NCBI GenBank assembly: GCA_947625015.1
Contig: CANQMR010000015.1
Location: 1-64,000 of the forward strand
Reading direction: 5' to 3'
Length of the DNA stretch: 64,000 nt
DNA from: an uncultured Lachnospiraceae bacterium
GTDB taxonomy: Bacteria > Bacillota > Clostridia > Lachnospirales > Lachnospiraceae
Of this stretch, positions 26,925 to 43,259 are shown one piece after another. Position numbers and translations under genes: made by a program. The notes under the pieces are model-generated. The model had not been told where the DNA came from and did not search any database. It worked only from the letters and a program-made list of their open reading frames with translations. Position 1 is the stretch's first letter, and every line of letters starts with the position of its first letter.

Positions 26925-27746
26925 TTATTTGGATACTAGGGAGAGAAGCTGTCCTAAATGTTCTTCAAAACATACCCCGTCATTGATCGGAACCTCCAGC
27001 TTGGCGGAGGTCAGCAGGCAGGTGCGGATAAAATCTGCGGCTGCCTTTACTGCGTCCCACAAAGGTATGTTATGTAAACTACACCCTGCCAATACGGAAG
27101 CAAATACATCGCCGGTTCCCGGACGCAGGGGAAGTATTTTTTCTCCATAAATTACATGAAAGCTGTCATTTTCAAAAATGGCGTTTCCAATCTGGTTATC
27201 TTTTTCCAATCCGGTCACCACAATCCTCGGCACGCCGGACGCTGAGAGGCTGCGGCACATATGATATATGTCCTGCTCCGACAAATCTTTTCGGTAAGGG
27301 GTGTCTGTCAAAATGCAAAGCTCGGTTATATTGGGCGTCGTCAGCGTAGAATGTATTACCAGCTCTTTCATGGCATGGCACATCTCCGGGGTGTAGGAAT
27401 CGTAAATGATTCCATGATCCCCCATGACCGGATCTACAATTCTCTGCCGGAAGGAAAATTTTTTGAAAATATCCGTAATGTTGTCCAACTGTTCTTTAGA
27501 ACCCAGAAACCCTGTATAGACGCCGTCAAAGGACAGGTGGAGCTGTTCCCATTTGGCGAGATAATCCTGCATATAAGGAGTGAAATCTAACATCCAGTAG
27601 TCGGGATATTCTGTGTGGTTGGACAGCACAGCCGTAGGGATAATGCCGCACTGAATCTTCATCACAGAGAGAATGGGCAGGGCCACAGTGACGGAGCAGC
27701 GGCCAAAGCCGGATATATCGTTTACAATAGCGATGGATTTCTGCAT
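26925..27746 (-). CDS. Pyridoxamine/pyridoxal kinase (PfkB superfamily)
   Basis: A 273-residue kinase of the PdxY/PdxK group, which phosphorylates B6 vitamers with ATP. NDISGFGRCSVTVALPILS at the N-terminus and RPGTGDVFASVLAG at the C-terminus (GTGD anion hole) are characteristic; VDPVMGDHG is the family's central motif. The start ATG has AGGAGAT upstream. The 191-nt structured repeat at 27784-27975 lies directly upstream of it. An ECF S component and a class V aminotransferase diverge from it, which supports a B6 salvage locus. Confidence 0.9.
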   Translation of the reverse strand: MQKSIAIVNDISGFGRCSVTVALPILSVMKIQCGIIPTAVLSNHTEYPDYWMLDFTPYMQDYLAKWEQLHLSFDGVYTGFLGSKEQLDNITDIFKKFSFRQRIVDPVMGDHGIIYDSYTPEMCHAMKELVIHSTLTTPNITELCILTDTPYRKDLSEQDIYHMCRSLSASGVPRIVVTGLEKDNQIGNAIFENDSFHVIYGEKILPLRPGTGDVFASVLAGCSLHNIPLWDAVKAAADFIRTCLLTSAKLEVPINDGVCFEEHLGQLLSLVSK

Positions 27747-27783
27747 GGGTTATCTCCTATCTGATATTTGAATTATTACAGGG

Positions 27784-27975
27784 GCGAAACGCATTTAGGT
27801 TCGTAATGGTTGTGCATATAGAACAATACTAACGCAGGTACGCTTGCGCTTGGTTACGCACGCAGCAATACTAAATTCGTGCTTCGCACTCATTAAGTAT
27901 CGGCGTGCATAAAACAACCTGCTTATCGTATTTGTTCTATAGGCACAACATAATTTCATTTTTTGAGCGTTTCGC
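27784..27975. repeat. Structured dispersed repeat, copy A
   Basis: A 192-nt element bounded by GCGAAACGC (27784-27792) and GCGTTTCGC (27967-27975). The outer stem pairs 27810-27829 with 27928-27948. Inner stems pair GCAGGT with ACCTGC, TTACGCACGC with GCGTGCATAA (one mismatch) and ATACT with AGTAT. The second copy at 42883-43073 has the same ends, a nearly identical core and a different but still paired outer stem. It could be a MITE-like element or a cis-acting RNA of the minus-strand gene starting 37 nt away. Short frames inside it are not considered genes. The rest of the 413-bp gap holds a small palindrome, CACTTTTGAAAGTG, at 28071-28084. Confidence 0.8.
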
Positions 27976-28133
27976 AAGTGTGTAATAGCTGAATTATTTA
28001 TATAAGATATTACACTTCAGGAAAAAAAGCAAGTCTTAATAACTGGCACTGTTAAAAAATATAAAACTGTCACTTTTGAAAGTGCCATATAGGGAGTATA
28101 GTACACCCATGCAAAAATAAAAGAGGAGAAGAT

Positions 28134-28175
28134 ATGGAAAAAGCAAGAGGTGAAGAGATATGGAAAAAGCGATAG
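28134..28175 (+). other. 13-codon mini-ORF from a leader duplication
   Basis: ATG 28134 has a strong GAGGAGAAG site and opens a 13-codon frame that overlaps the start of the ECF gene at 28160 in another frame. The two starts lie in near-identical 26-bp units (ribosome binding site plus ATGGAAAAAGC), so this is probably a small tandem duplication. It may couple or dampen translation of the downstream gene, but could be without function. Confidence 0.35.
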
Positions 28176-40309: not shown

Positions 40310-40909
40310 CTATTCCTCGTACTCAAATATATATTTTTCATAGCCGTTGATAACGGTAGTATGTTTGTTGTACTGACATTCCCTCTGCTGGTTGATGTTA
40401 TAATTCAGATGTACATGCCCATGAAGAAAATATTTTGGCCGATACTTGTCCAACAGTTCCCGGAAGGCGCAAAAGCCCGAGTGGGGAAGGTCTTCCCCGT
40501 CGTTGAACTGATAGGCGGGAGCATGAGTGACTAAGATATCAAAGCCCTTGTGCTTCCGGAGTTTGCGCCACAGGCGGCGGACCCGGTTTTGCATTTCCCG
40601 GTCAGTATATTGGAACGGCCCGTAATTATAACATTTAGAGCCCCCTAAGCCTAAAATGCGGACGCCCTCATGGACATAGATGTCATTGTCTATGCAGATG
40701 CAGCCCTCCGGCGGATTGCTTTTGTATACTGCGTCGTGGTTGCCATGGACATAGAGCACCGGCACCCTGGCGTAGGTGGCAAGAAATGAAAGATACTGCG
40801 GTTTTAAATCCCCACAGGAAATAATTAAATCAATCCCCTCCAGTTTACTTTTCTCAAAGTAATCCCATAGGTACTTGGATTCTTCATCGGCAAGTACAAG
40901 TATTCTCAT
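40310..40909 (-). CDS. Metallophosphoesterase
   Basis: A 199-residue calcineurin-like phosphoesterase. Metal-binding motifs are ISCGDLKPQYL (GD), VHGNHDAVY (GNHD), VTHAP and HGHVHLNYN (GHxH); the usual first DxH is replaced by VLADEE, which may weaken or alter metal binding. Its start overlaps the end of the upstream ParB-BMP fusion gene by 4 bp on the minus strand, so the two are translationally coupled. The substrate is unknown; the neighbour suggests a nucleotide-related compound. Confidence 0.88.
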   Translation of the reverse strand: MRILVLADEESKYLWDYFEKSKLEGIDLIISCGDLKPQYLSFLATYARVPVLYVHGNHDAVYKSNPPEGCICIDNDIYVHEGVRILGLGGSKCYNYGPFQYTDREMQNRVRRLWRKLRKHKGFDILVTHAPAYQFNDGEDLPHSGFCAFRELLDKYRPKYFLHGHVHLNYNINQQRECQYNKHTTVINGYEKYIFEYEE

Positions 40910-42837
40910 AACAGAGATGTCCCCCCTTTATCCGGGGAGGTTGTATCAACTCCCCTGAGTTCCACAATCGGCTTCGCCTTATCTTTTAGTTCGTCGATAA
41001 CCGGAATTGTCCCCACTACATTATCTACAAGCCAGTCCATCGTCATAATCTGTTCCGGCGTTAAAATGTCAAATTCGCCGCACCGTACGTTGCCCTTCTG
41101 GTCTGTCAACAGCCCGCTGAAGGGATGAAATACGCCTGCGGAAATGGAATTTTTCAACAGATTGACAAGCTTAATCGTCGCTGCCGGAATGTTTTTCGAG
41201 CAGATGACGTCAATCACGCCAGCCGACAGTCCCCACCAGTAATTAATGGCTTTGCTTTCAGTGGATTCTTCGGCTTTCCAGGAGCCGCGCATAATGCTGC
41301 TGATTAATTCCTCATAGAACGCGCCCCAGTGGTATATGGACATGGCCAGATTGGTCTTTTCCCCGCCATGGATGGTGTACAGGCCGAACTGCTTGGCGTC
41401 GTCGGTAGGCGTAATCATATCCTGGGCGGATATGTAGTTAATCTGTTCGTCCCAGAACAAGGCTCCGGCGTCCGACTGCTTTGTGGAAGACCAGGTCAGG
41501 TAAATTTCTGATCTTGGATTTACCATTTTGGCGCCTAAGGCAAAGGCGTTGATATTGGCAACTACTCCGTAAATGGGATAGTCGGCGATGTAGCCGATTT
41601 TATCATTCTCGCACAGAGCGCCGGCAATGATGCCGGTTAGGAATTTGGCCTCGTACATTCGGGTATAATAGGTGCGCACAGTGTTGTGCGAGGAGTTCAG
41701 CGCGCAGTTTAGTATCTTTACATTGGGGTGGTCGGTTGCCACCTTAAGGCTGGCCTTGATTAGCTGCGGGGTGACGGTAAAAATGATGTCGTTCCCGTCG
41801 TTGCAGATATATTCCAACACTTCTTCTGCGTGCTCGCTGTCCGTAATATAGCTTTTGGTCTTGATTTCTTCCCCGAAGACTTCCTGTAAATGAAGCCGTC
41901 CCAGTTCATGTCCGTAAATCCAGCCGGATTTGGCGGGCTCCCGGTCATAGACAAAGGCTACTTTTTTCCTTGTGGAGATAATGCGGTTAATCACAGAGTT
42001 TACCCTGCTTTTTTCCTCCGAAGGATTCATGTGGAGTTCCACGGTATCCTGTCCGCCCAACAGCAGAATTTCCGGCCATATCTTGTCAAGGTTTTCCTTG
42101 ATTGCAGCGCTGCTCATCTCTCTGGCTTTGTCATAGGGGTAGAGGGACAGATAAAAAATCAGGGCGTCTCCGCAGGTGGTGTCCTTTAACTGGTTGCCGC
42201 CCTTTTCCTTAAACGCCTTGTAAAAGGCGGTGTGGAAGGAGGAAAAATCCATGCACTGGTCCTCGCTCCATGGCGTTTCGGTATCTCCGGCCACGGTCTG
42301 CAAAAGTTTCGGGAAGCTTCCTAACTTGGTAAACTGGACATAGTTAATCTTCGTCAGCCGGTAAAAATCCATAAACTCATAATAAATCCGGTTCTCCAAA
42401 TCCTCTGTCCGTTTTGGCACCTTCCGGATTACTTCTGCGGCAATGGTGGGGGAGTCAAAATATTTTAATACGCTGGTTCGTTTGTTGCCCTCCACCACAT
42501 AATACCGGTTCATGTATTCATAGACTTTAATCGCGTCGTGAATCCCCTCTTCAATCTGTGCGTCAACTAAATGCGACCATTTTGCGGAAAATTCGGTTCC
42601 GTAATCCAAAAGGGGCATGAAATTGGAGGCGAAGGCCCTTGTCCTTCCGGCTGTGCTGGTGCCGATTACCTGGCCTAGGGGAATGTTCATCACCCCCAGG
42701 TTGACTTCACATTCCGTCTCCGCTAAAGTTAATATTTCGTCTAATACGGGCAGATATGGGTACTGCCCTCTTGCAGTGTTCATCTTATATGCTTTTAAAC
42801 CCATTTTCTGGGCCTTAATGTAATCTTCGTATGCCAT
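40906..42837 (-). CDS. ParB-like domain fused to a BMP/PnrA-type ligand-binding domain
   Basis: A 643-residue fusion. Residues 1 to about 280 contain a ParB/sulfiredoxin-fold signature (NRYYVVEGNKRTSVLKYF near 108-125) and a helical extension. Residues from about 288 to 610 match the BMP family of purine-nucleoside-binding lipoproteins: KVAFVYD, then GNDIIFTVTPQLIKA, AKFLTGIIAGAL and KIGYIADYPIYGVVANINAF. There is no signal peptide or lipobox, so unlike PnrA/BmpA the ligand domain should be cytoplasmic. No ABC transporter genes accompany it. It is coupled to a metallophosphoesterase gene. A nucleoside-sensing regulator or enzyme is an inference. Confidence 0.85.
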   Translation of the reverse strand: MAYEDYIKAQKMGLKAYKMNTARGQYPYLPVLDEILTLAETECEVNLGVMNIPLGQVIGTSTAGRTRAFASNFMPLLDYGTEFSAKWSHLVDAQIEEGIHDAIKVYEYMNRYYVVEGNKRTSVLKYFDSPTIAAEVIRKVPKRTEDLENRIYYEFMDFYRLTKINYVQFTKLGSFPKLLQTVAGDTETPWSEDQCMDFSSFHTAFYKAFKEKGGNQLKDTTCGDALIFYLSLYPYDKAREMSSAAIKENLDKIWPEILLLGGQDTVELHMNPSEEKSRVNSVINRIISTRKKVAFVYDREPAKSGWIYGHELGRLHLQEVFGEEIKTKSYITDSEHAEEVLEYICNDGNDIIFTVTPQLIKASLKVATDHPNVKILNCALNSSHNTVRTYYTRMYEAKFLTGIIAGALCENDKIGYIADYPIYGVVANINAFALGAKMVNPRSEIYLTWSSTKQSDAGALFWDEQINYISAQDMITPTDDAKQFGLYTIHGGEKTNLAMSIYHWGAFYEELISSIMRGSWKAEESTESKAINYWWGLSAGVIDVICSKNIPAATIKLVNLLKNSISAGVFHPFSGLLTDQKGNVRCGEFDILTPEQIMTMDWLVDNVVGTIPVIDELKDKAKPIVELRGVDTTSPDKGGTSLL

Positions 42838-42882
42838 GATGTCATCCCTTCCATGATGTAATATTTTATATGGTTTTTATGG

Positions 42883-43073
42883 GCGAAACGCATATGTGTT
42901 ACAAACGCTGCAAGAGATACAACAATACCAACGCAGGTACGCTTGCGCTTGGTTATGCACGCAACGGTACTAAATTCGCGCTTTGCACTCATTAAGTACC
43001 GGCGTGCATAAAACAACCTGCTTATGGTATTTGTTGTATCTTTGCAGCACCCCAAGGTTTTATAGCGTTTCGC
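42883..43073. repeat. Structured dispersed repeat, copy B
   Basis: A 191-nt element with the same ends as copy A: GCGAAACGC (42883-42891) and GCGTTTCGC (43065-43073). The outer stem pairs 42907-42929 with 43026-43048 and differs in sequence from copy A while pairing equally well. The inner stem TTATGCACGC/GCGTGCATAA is perfect here, and GGTACT/AGTACC replaces ATACT/AGTAT of copy A. It begins 45 nt upstream of the ParB-BMP start codon on the minus strand, in the same relation as copy A to its gene. The remaining bases of this 422-bp gap show no gene. Confidence 0.8.
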
Positions 43074-43259
43074 TTGTTATATGTTATGAGATACCTGTAA
43101 TGGAGGTACCGGCTACATCATAGCATATCTGCGGGGGAATTGCTACTGCAAGATGAAAAAATAATAGAGAGGCATTTACAAATAGAAGGTTTCCAGTTAC
43201 AATAATGCAGTGTGGAAGATACCGATAATATAACAGATGATAGAAAGTCAGGTAACAGA

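Follow-up and report, generated by a model that had tools for sequence, protein, structure and literature searches.

A mobile MITE-like hairpin of Lachnospiraceae with a conserved core and copy-specific arms

The element presented here is real, mobile and MITE-like. We consider it probable that it is a non-autonomous mobile hairpin of Lachnospiraceae, composed of a strand-specific core of ~95 nt and of arms that are corrected through template switching. The inverted-repeat arms extend for ~30 to 200 bp around the core and, in the genus of the window, the element bears terminal repeats of the type TAGGYAATTGCGAAAC. The core merits experiments, and the changes seen in the outer stem are no proof of selection on the fold.

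Copies A and B and the distribution of the element

Two copies, A and B, are located in the window, that is, the whole stretch of 64,000 nt that was analysed. Their features and their neighboring genes are given below (a dot stands where no strand applies).

27778..27990, minus strand: full element of copy A, delimited by the direct repeats GAATTATT and by BLAST and covariance-model matches; 27784-27975 is its inner part
27770..27777,. : left putative target-site duplication of copy A (sequence; the orthologue in genome G023 has GAATTATTTA on both sides)
27991..27998,. : right putative target-site duplication of copy A (sequence)
27784..27792, plus strand: left inner terminal inverted repeat GCGAAACGC of copy A (sequence match)
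27967..27975, plus strand: right inner terminal inverted repeat GCGTTTCGC of copy A (sequence match)
27815..27937, minus strand: conserved core of copy A with adjoining stem (model R1, 127.7 bits; minus strand assumed functional from GNRA and G.U/A.C)
27842..27849, minus strand: side mini-hairpin GC-GCAA-GC of copy A, with a GNRA tetraloop (sequence)
27810..27829,. : 5' arm of the outer stem of copy A in the plus-strand view (sequence, fold)
27928..27948,. : 3' arm of the outer stem of copy A (sequence, fold)
42883..43073, minus strand: copy B (sequence, fold, covariance model; orthologue at the same place in G023)
42914..43036, minus strand: core of copy B (model R1, 131.8 bits)
42941..42948, minus strand: side mini-hairpin GC-GCAA-GC of copy B (sequence)
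42866..42872,. : left copy of the weak 7-bp direct repeat TTATATG at copy B (sequence; partner at 43077-43083)
26925..27746, minus strand: neighbor gene of copy A, Phos_pyr_kin (pyridoxine-kinase-like), starting ~38 bp beyond GCGAAACGC
40906..42837, minus strand: neighbor gene of copy B, a Bmp / PnrA-like domain protein, starting ~46 bp beyond GCGAAACGC

Re-reading of the window letters confirmed where the initial annotation had placed the two copies and the ends that they share. The left end, GCGAAACGC, is located at 27784-27792 in A and 42883-42891 in B, and the right end, GCGTTTCGC, at 27967-27975 and 43065-43073, respectively. The nearly identical core was likewise found as described, with the inner stem ATACT/AGTAT in A and GGTACT/AGTACC in B, and so were the outer stems, which differ in their letters and retain their pairing. 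Copy A had been positioned correctly but described as too short, since the full element runs from ~27778 to 27990 and is bounded by direct repeats. Specifically, GAATTATT flanks it at 27770-27777 and 27991-27998 (with the adjacent TA, GAATTATT(TA) on both sides), and its orthologue in the nearest genome, G023, carries GAATTATTTA on each flank. The flanking duplication of copy A is 8-10 bp. Copy B has a weaker 7-bp repeat, TTATATG, at 42866-42872 and 43077-43083, which could be a chance occurrence. Folding compared with dinucleotide shuffles gave z-scores of -6.1 (A, plus strand), -7.8 (B, plus strand) and -8.0 (A, minus strand), with 0 of 200 shuffles folding as well in each case.

The covariance-model search that the initial annotation had proposed detected 54 copies in the genome of the window (G000; 2.82 Mb in 47 contigs) at E ≤ 1.1e-16, two of them in the window itself. 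The model was built from 21 minus-strand cores of this genome, which were aligned and folded with RNAalifold. BLAST presented 35 matches to copy A in the same genome, fragments counted. The 54 copies comprise 23 short ones, like A and B, and 31 long ones (~550 bp), which have a longer apical stem and long arms, and the remaining 24 of the 78 model matches at E ≤ 10 are for the most part fragments, short apical motifs or the same hairpins matched in antisense.

Other loci carry parts of the element. A third class (L013, L014, L020, L064, L070, L073, L078, L079, L084) combines this core with outer stems that differ in sequence (GGAAAGGAAAATGG or GGACGC-like), and GCGAAACGC was not seen within the stretches printed for it. 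The apical hairpin CACTAAATTCGTGC..GCACTCATTAAGTG occurs without the core inside other small palindromes (L023, L028). At two places in the window's genome, L011/L021 (C44:7302-7396) and L015/L018 (C34:8123-8240), both ends are retained and the core is mostly or wholly deleted.

Concerning the wider distribution, the element was found in at least 83 of 200 sampled Lachnospiraceae genomes and at least 82 of 199 genera, with the best candidates scored. Sampling of the class gave 7 of 196 genomes, all seven belonging to Lachnospiraceae. All 26 sampled genomes of the window's genus, its own included, bear the element in one or more copies, and so do 5 of 10 further genomes of the family; the other families of the order presented one marginal match (E 0.069) in 24 genomes. 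A pattern scan of named genomes yielded at least 118 stretches. The 80 matches listed are mostly titled Lachnospiraceae or a member genus, including Roseburia inulinivorans, Eisenbergiella tayi, Blautia, Butyrivibrio and Acetatifactor; some carry no finer label than Clostridiales, Clostridia or Bacillota, and a few are labelled Muribaculaceae or Muribaculum, and these we take as misnamed MAGs. The model matched 78 of these 80 loci. E. tayi DSM 26961 (G060) has at least 137 model matches at E ≤ 1, a few of them antisense or partial, among the best 150 of 1232 candidates scored.

Rfam (4227 models) gave no match at gathering score in the window; in six loci covering both the short and the long form, the sole match was a tRNA lying outside the element. 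A known Rfam RNA was accordingly dropped, the best sub-threshold match being to a miRNA model (E 1.5). An origin from phages or plasmids was also rejected, as copy A had no match there and none of the four exact pattern matches in viral contigs was supported by the model.

Ends, target duplications and mobility

Near-identical copies with the ends TAGGYAATTGCGAAAC ... GTTTCGCAAACGCCTA were identified in a sister species (G016). The sequence TTGCGAAAC is part of these ends and AGGNNNTTGCGAAAC is present at each of them, so that the copies possess terminal inverted repeats as MITEs do. The end pairs lie 203-258 bp or 522-575 bp apart and have common ends (3 spurious pairings of 30 excluded); like MITEs, they are too short to encode a transposase. 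Target duplications were sought as exact repeats of at least 8 bases, at most 3 nt from the ends. An exact direct repeat of 9-15 bp was found in 24 of the 30 candidate end pairs, compared with a mean of 0.6 and a maximum of 3 when left and right flanks were permuted, and three of the six pairs without a duplication are the spurious pairings. In E. tayi, few target duplications are evident by eye. The long form shares the core, and in G016 its middle resembles by eye that of the long form in the window's genome. As core and ends are shared and the middle is similar, short and long copies were taken as two forms of one element.

Duplications of 9-15 bp typify double-strand DDE transposition and not single-strand Y1 transposition. 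A DDE-type transposase acting in trans would move the element through its ends. The 95 exact end matches of G016 revealed no element that has these ends and carries a transposase. Facing exact ends at a distance of 0.7-6 kb occurred only across neighboring copies, and thus the assembled G016 contigs show no exact-ended element of transposase size. Most of the ends that are unpaired or at contig ends were read by eye, and those read are parts of the short or long form, short remnants or chance matches. A transposase of the PF01609 type was dropped as the mover, because this domain is absent from the three genomes searched. Elements of the IS200/IS605 type, which transpose as single strands, leave no target duplication and lack terminal inverted repeats, whereas both are present here.

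Some copies deserve separate mention. Three loci of G016 (L278, L283, L287) are ~50-bp derivatives with little beyond the two ends, and by eye L278 and L283 are flanked by direct repeats with one mismatch. These mini-copies suggest that the core is not needed for recognition by the mover, although they may also be later deletions. A 203-bp copy (L275, G016) interrupts the T-tract of a hairpin that resembles an intrinsic terminator, and TGTATCTTTTT is duplicated at this insertion. Furthermore, the flanks of long copies are shuffled between the window's genome (L226, L228; L229, L230) and G023 (L317, L318; L319, respectively), a pattern that recombination or inversion between inverted copies could produce.

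Conserved core and outer arms

Read on the minus strand, P1 and a loop are followed by P2, which carries a 2-nt bulge, and by P3, which contains a UUA/UUA internal loop; a variable apical hairpin and a side hairpin of two pairs make up the remainder. The core measures ~95 nt, occupies the tip of the hairpin and forms a three-way junction of P1, the GNRA mini-hairpin and P2. The side loop is a GNRA in 199 of 199 rows of the alignments A4, A5 and A7 (minus strand), namely GCAA (71), GAAA (71), GAGA (32), GGAA (16), GGGA (8) and GCGA (1). This count leaves out A3, which was collected by a pattern fixing part of the side hairpin, and one E. tayi row with an insertion there (L365:1141); A4 and A5 contain duplicate loci (4 and 2, respectively) and many near-identical G016 copies. 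The stem of the side hairpin is GC/GC in 171 rows, GT/AC in 17 and AC/GT in 8, with one G.U in 3. We know of no stable class to which a plus-strand reading of these loops would belong, and for this reason the minus strand was taken as the folded one.

Covariation, the significance of which the initial annotation had proposed to test, lies far above the controls in the core. In A5, 28 of 33 pairs covary, a value that none of 500 shuffles reached, and in A3 25 of 33 do; shuffles and slid controls were all lower in both alignments, whose rows are related by descent and had been fitted to the model. The 21 cores of the window's genome have at least one double change in 22 of the 33 pairs predicted by RNAalifold.

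Mismatches point to one strand as well. In the model-fitted alignments, pair columns with more G.U than A.C stand to the opposite kind as 17:8 (A3), 15:3 (A4), 14:5 (A5) and 14:1 (A7). The 72 distinct E. tayi rows (A7) have 16 G.U and no A.C in P1, P2, P3 and the side hairpin together. At the base of the stem (P1a, P1b) of E. tayi the ratio is 120:4, nearly all of it from two columns, and in the core of 27 long copies of the window's genome 15:0, with 12 of the 15 in one column. Counter-columns are found at one pair of P3, where A.C exceeds G.U by 28:0 (A3) and 6:0 (A5), and at one pair of P2, by 4:0 (A3), 6:1 (A4) and 5:0 (A5). Since many G.U cells fall in few columns and share descent, the claim of a strand in the core rests on the column tallies. 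This excess of G.U over A.C makes a strand-specific fold, of RNA or of single-stranded DNA, likely in the core, as far as the aligned sequences can tell. The initial annotation had spoken of a structured RNA or a hairpin mobile element; mobility is now supported by the terminal inverted repeats, the target duplications and the 54 copies, while an RNA is a possibility for the core only, given its invariant GNRA loop and its G.U excess. The core would be retained because its single-stranded form is bound by a putative factor, and this form would most likely be RNA, produced by transcription of the element together with its neighbors.

Among DNA mini-hairpins, those of the GC-GNRA-GC kind are known to be very stable. 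The core might therefore fold as single-stranded DNA, on the lagging strand or in a transposition intermediate, and be read by a DNA-binding protein. The exact GC/GC around the loop in 58 of 71 E. tayi rows, as in the 171 of 199 pooled rows, agrees with such a fold, and strand specificity suits single-stranded DNA and RNA equally. We nevertheless regard this as unlikely, because the ends with their 9-15 bp duplications point to double-strand DDE transposition and the end-only derivatives (L278, L283, L287), if they are not later deletions, indicate that the core may be dispensable for end recognition.

The outer arms behave differently from the core. The initial annotation had held that compensatory change means selection on the fold. 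For the outer stem this fails, as no wobble preference is seen and the arms are copy-specific and yet self-complementary. A selected minus-strand RNA would tolerate G.U and not A.C. The outer-stem mismatches of the short form are 120 G.U and 134 A.C (p 0.41) in 104 distinct copies, those alignable among 124 non-redundant short copies (the outer stems of the other 20 were too poor). In the window's genome alone (15 of 22 copies) A.C exceeds G.U by 28:12 (p 0.017). For the long form of this genome, 27 of 31 copies were aligned, four being omitted as degenerate or at a contig edge. Double changes occur in 66 of its 159 predicted pairs, and the outer helix has 183 double changes and 21 single changes that still pair. 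G.U:A.C is 25:15 in the outer helix, 31:25 in the middle one and 5:7 in the inner one, 61:47 in sum, with one isolated pair of the 159 (columns 90/502) omitted from these counts.

In E. tayi, the arms of 70 copies have a median of 88 bp and are 97.6% self-complementary, 17 of the 70 being without mismatch or gap (four E. tayi copies adjoin assembly gaps). Best local scores against every other arm are below 30 for 53 of the 65 arms of at least 40 bases, so that most arms are without an evident relative in the other copies. The mismatches are 42 G.U and 64 A.C (p 0.04), the opposite of an RNA bias on the core strand. With regard to base composition, all 66 E. tayi arms of at least 30 bases (loci L330-L399; mean 0.635) are rich in pyrimidines on the 5' side, and the 5' side of the outer helix is so in 27 of 27 long copies of the window's genome (mean 0.705).

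The absence of a wobble preference, together with copy-specific self-complementary arms, suggests homogenisation of the arms at the DNA level, and template switching fits this pattern. During replication, template switching would copy one arm onto the other (quasi-palindrome correction), and such copying would give rise to paired changes that need no selection for an RNA fold. That template switching homogenises the arms of inverted repeats is reported in the accessible parts of PMC8604942 and PMC7202029. Plain gene conversion from arm to arm over the whole length was rejected: the 27 long copies keep arm-specific internal loops while the helices vary, and the persistence of these loops makes conversion of whole arms unlikely, so that correction must be local, within the helices.

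Orthologous copies allowed a closer look at these changes. The long stretches of G023 that align to the window are 95-97% identical to it, and both A and B occupy corresponding positions there. In six long copies, those with a one-to-one orthologue among the copies compared, 35 paired positions differ and 885 are unchanged (26 in gaps, uncounted). Five of the 35 changed on both sides with pairing kept, four of them in L055, compared with ~0.15 expected by chance if the sides changed independently (our own arithmetic). The other 30 changed on one side, giving 12 A.C, 6 G.U and 12 other combinations. The double changes of L055/L315 are scattered and seemingly include a small deletion in both arms. 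Judged by their pattern, the double changes fit template switching between inverted-repeat arms; a DNA cruciform kept by selection is also compatible with it, and the five double changes could have arisen through compensatory selection. As 30 of the 35 changed pairs are still single, arm correction would be slow or incomplete.

If the whole hairpin, arms included, were one large structured RNA (~190 nt in the short form, ~550 nt in the long one), all its stems would be selected. The 66 doubly changed pairs of the long copies in one genome and the conservation of arm-specific internal loops between varying helices are in line with it, but none of the three arm sets has a clear G.U excess (61:47 in long copies, 120:134 in short ones, 42:64 in E. 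tayi), double changes in the outer helix far exceed intermediates (183 and 21), and among new mismatches in orthologous arms A.C (12) exceeds G.U (6); such an RNA appears improbable to us.

The arms could also have been captured by each copy, as an inverted copy of the target flank or as foreign DNA stored in a hairpin, instead of drifting in concert. Copy-unique, near-perfect arms of up to 127 aligned bases would be accounted for in this way. We give capture little credence, because graded families of related arms exist in E. tayi (L355, L358, L359) and orthologous arms change partly in step. Moreover, when one E. tayi arm was searched against its own genome, the matches above chance level were the two arms of that copy and a weak one in a further copy of the hairpin. 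A 165-base query from the same copy (core and inner part of the arms) had no match in a phage search, which is weak evidence.

Returning to the mobile hairpin with template-switch-corrected arms, a further step may be ventured tentatively, and we would sooner call it possible than probable. The element may represent a new, family-wide class of mobile hairpins, the tip of which would be an undescribed folded domain of RNA or single-stranded DNA, built as a three-way junction in which the GNRA side loop is obligatory and selected on one strand for a function in trans, and the arms of which would be self-correcting palindromes. If this holds, the function of the tip in trans would be element mobility or the binding of a host factor, and a genome with ~130 copies would have a private, nearly perfect pair of arms in most of them. 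The arms offer hundreds of natural replicates of the evolution of long palindromes in bacteria. Paired changes in such a hairpin are alone no proof of selection on an RNA fold. R-scape-type tests of covariation could return strong signals for self-correcting DNA palindromes, and a tally of G.U and A.C mismatches helps to separate selection on RNA from palindrome self-correction.

Comparison with known elements and gene context

The literature searched contained no description of the element; supplements lay outside that search, and so did most subscription papers. It is an abundant mobile hairpin of a major family of gut bacteria, and its conserved core invites a functional test. Integron attC sites are palindromes of variable sequence that are retained as a fold, with strand-specific unpaired features. 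The element resembles them in both respects, but differs in having a conserved tip and variable arms. Multi-copy occurrence, mobility and structure are likewise traits of HEARO and other large structured RNAs of Rfam, whereas neither the short nor the long form has an Rfam match. REP mobility through Y1 transposases leaves no target duplication, unlike that of the present element. REP/BIME sequences and REPINs are similar in being dispersed palindromes that are probably mobilised in trans (accessible parts of PMC3116915 and PMC2817692).

Bacterial MITEs (Correia/nemis, ERIC, QMITE), as far as the accessible part of PMC10969869 describes them, are alike in being short, non-coding and intergenic and in having terminal inverted repeats, target duplications and transcripts with predicted stable hairpins. 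The difference lies in the interior, which here is a branched core shared across the family, with no evident transposase remnant, and in arms that are specific to each copy. The nearest published kind that we found is that of the structured mobile/repeat motifs (MRSC), described in the part of PMC11109978 that was accessible, for which PMC8632094 and PMC6429828, in their accessible parts, are pertinent only to the mobile/repeat category. MRSC motifs such as MRSC-65-2 are covarying and structured, reach dozens of copies per genome and have inconsistent gene orientation, as is the case here, and according to their authors the structure may matter as DNA (PMC11109978). MRSC-65-2 consists of one long stem in which a UYCCGG repeat is conserved, and has > 20,000 representatives in diverse phyla (PMC11109978), whereas the present core is branched, UYCCGG is missing in A and B, and among the genomes sampled the element is found in one family only. 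The same paper tabulates 250 mobile/repeat candidates, and the element could be one of them.

Simple ORF calls placed the copies mostly between genes. In the window's genome, 16 of the 22 short copies with both neighbors called, A and B included, have a sense gene downstream in the minus-strand view. Over all 138 short copies with called neighbors, 51 are codirectional sense, 49 codirectional antisense (p 0.92), 26 divergent and 12 convergent. The genus-and-relatives set (A4 and A5) has 35 codirectional sense and 26 antisense copies (p 0.31), and E. tayi 18 and 25, respectively, besides 18 divergent and 5 convergent ones. Long copies tend to adjoin gene ends, with median core-to-stop-codon distances of 191 nt (n = 17) and 204.5 nt (n = 12), close to one arm length. 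A cis-regulatory leader RNA of the downstream genes is very improbable: the 16 of 22 copies in the window's genome had made a 5'-UTR regulator look convincing and A4 with A5 lean the same way, but the candidate was dropped at 51:49 overall, E. tayi leans to antisense, and the neighbors of A and B differ in function. The initial annotation had set its reading against a known MITE with target-site duplications and no link to gene starts. The duplications are present and a general link of orientation is missing, as it had envisaged, whereas the word known would not apply, no description of this MITE having been found in the literature searched.

The other neighbors of the two window copies are an ECF riboflavin-transporter S component (A) and a topoisomerase (B). 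Finally, a short direct repeat like AAAAAGC(A/G)AGAGGTGAAGAGATATGG is located at 28118-28175 of the window, 5' of the ECF riboflavin-transporter gene, and its copy number differs between the window's genome and G023, the latter having ~78 extra bases.
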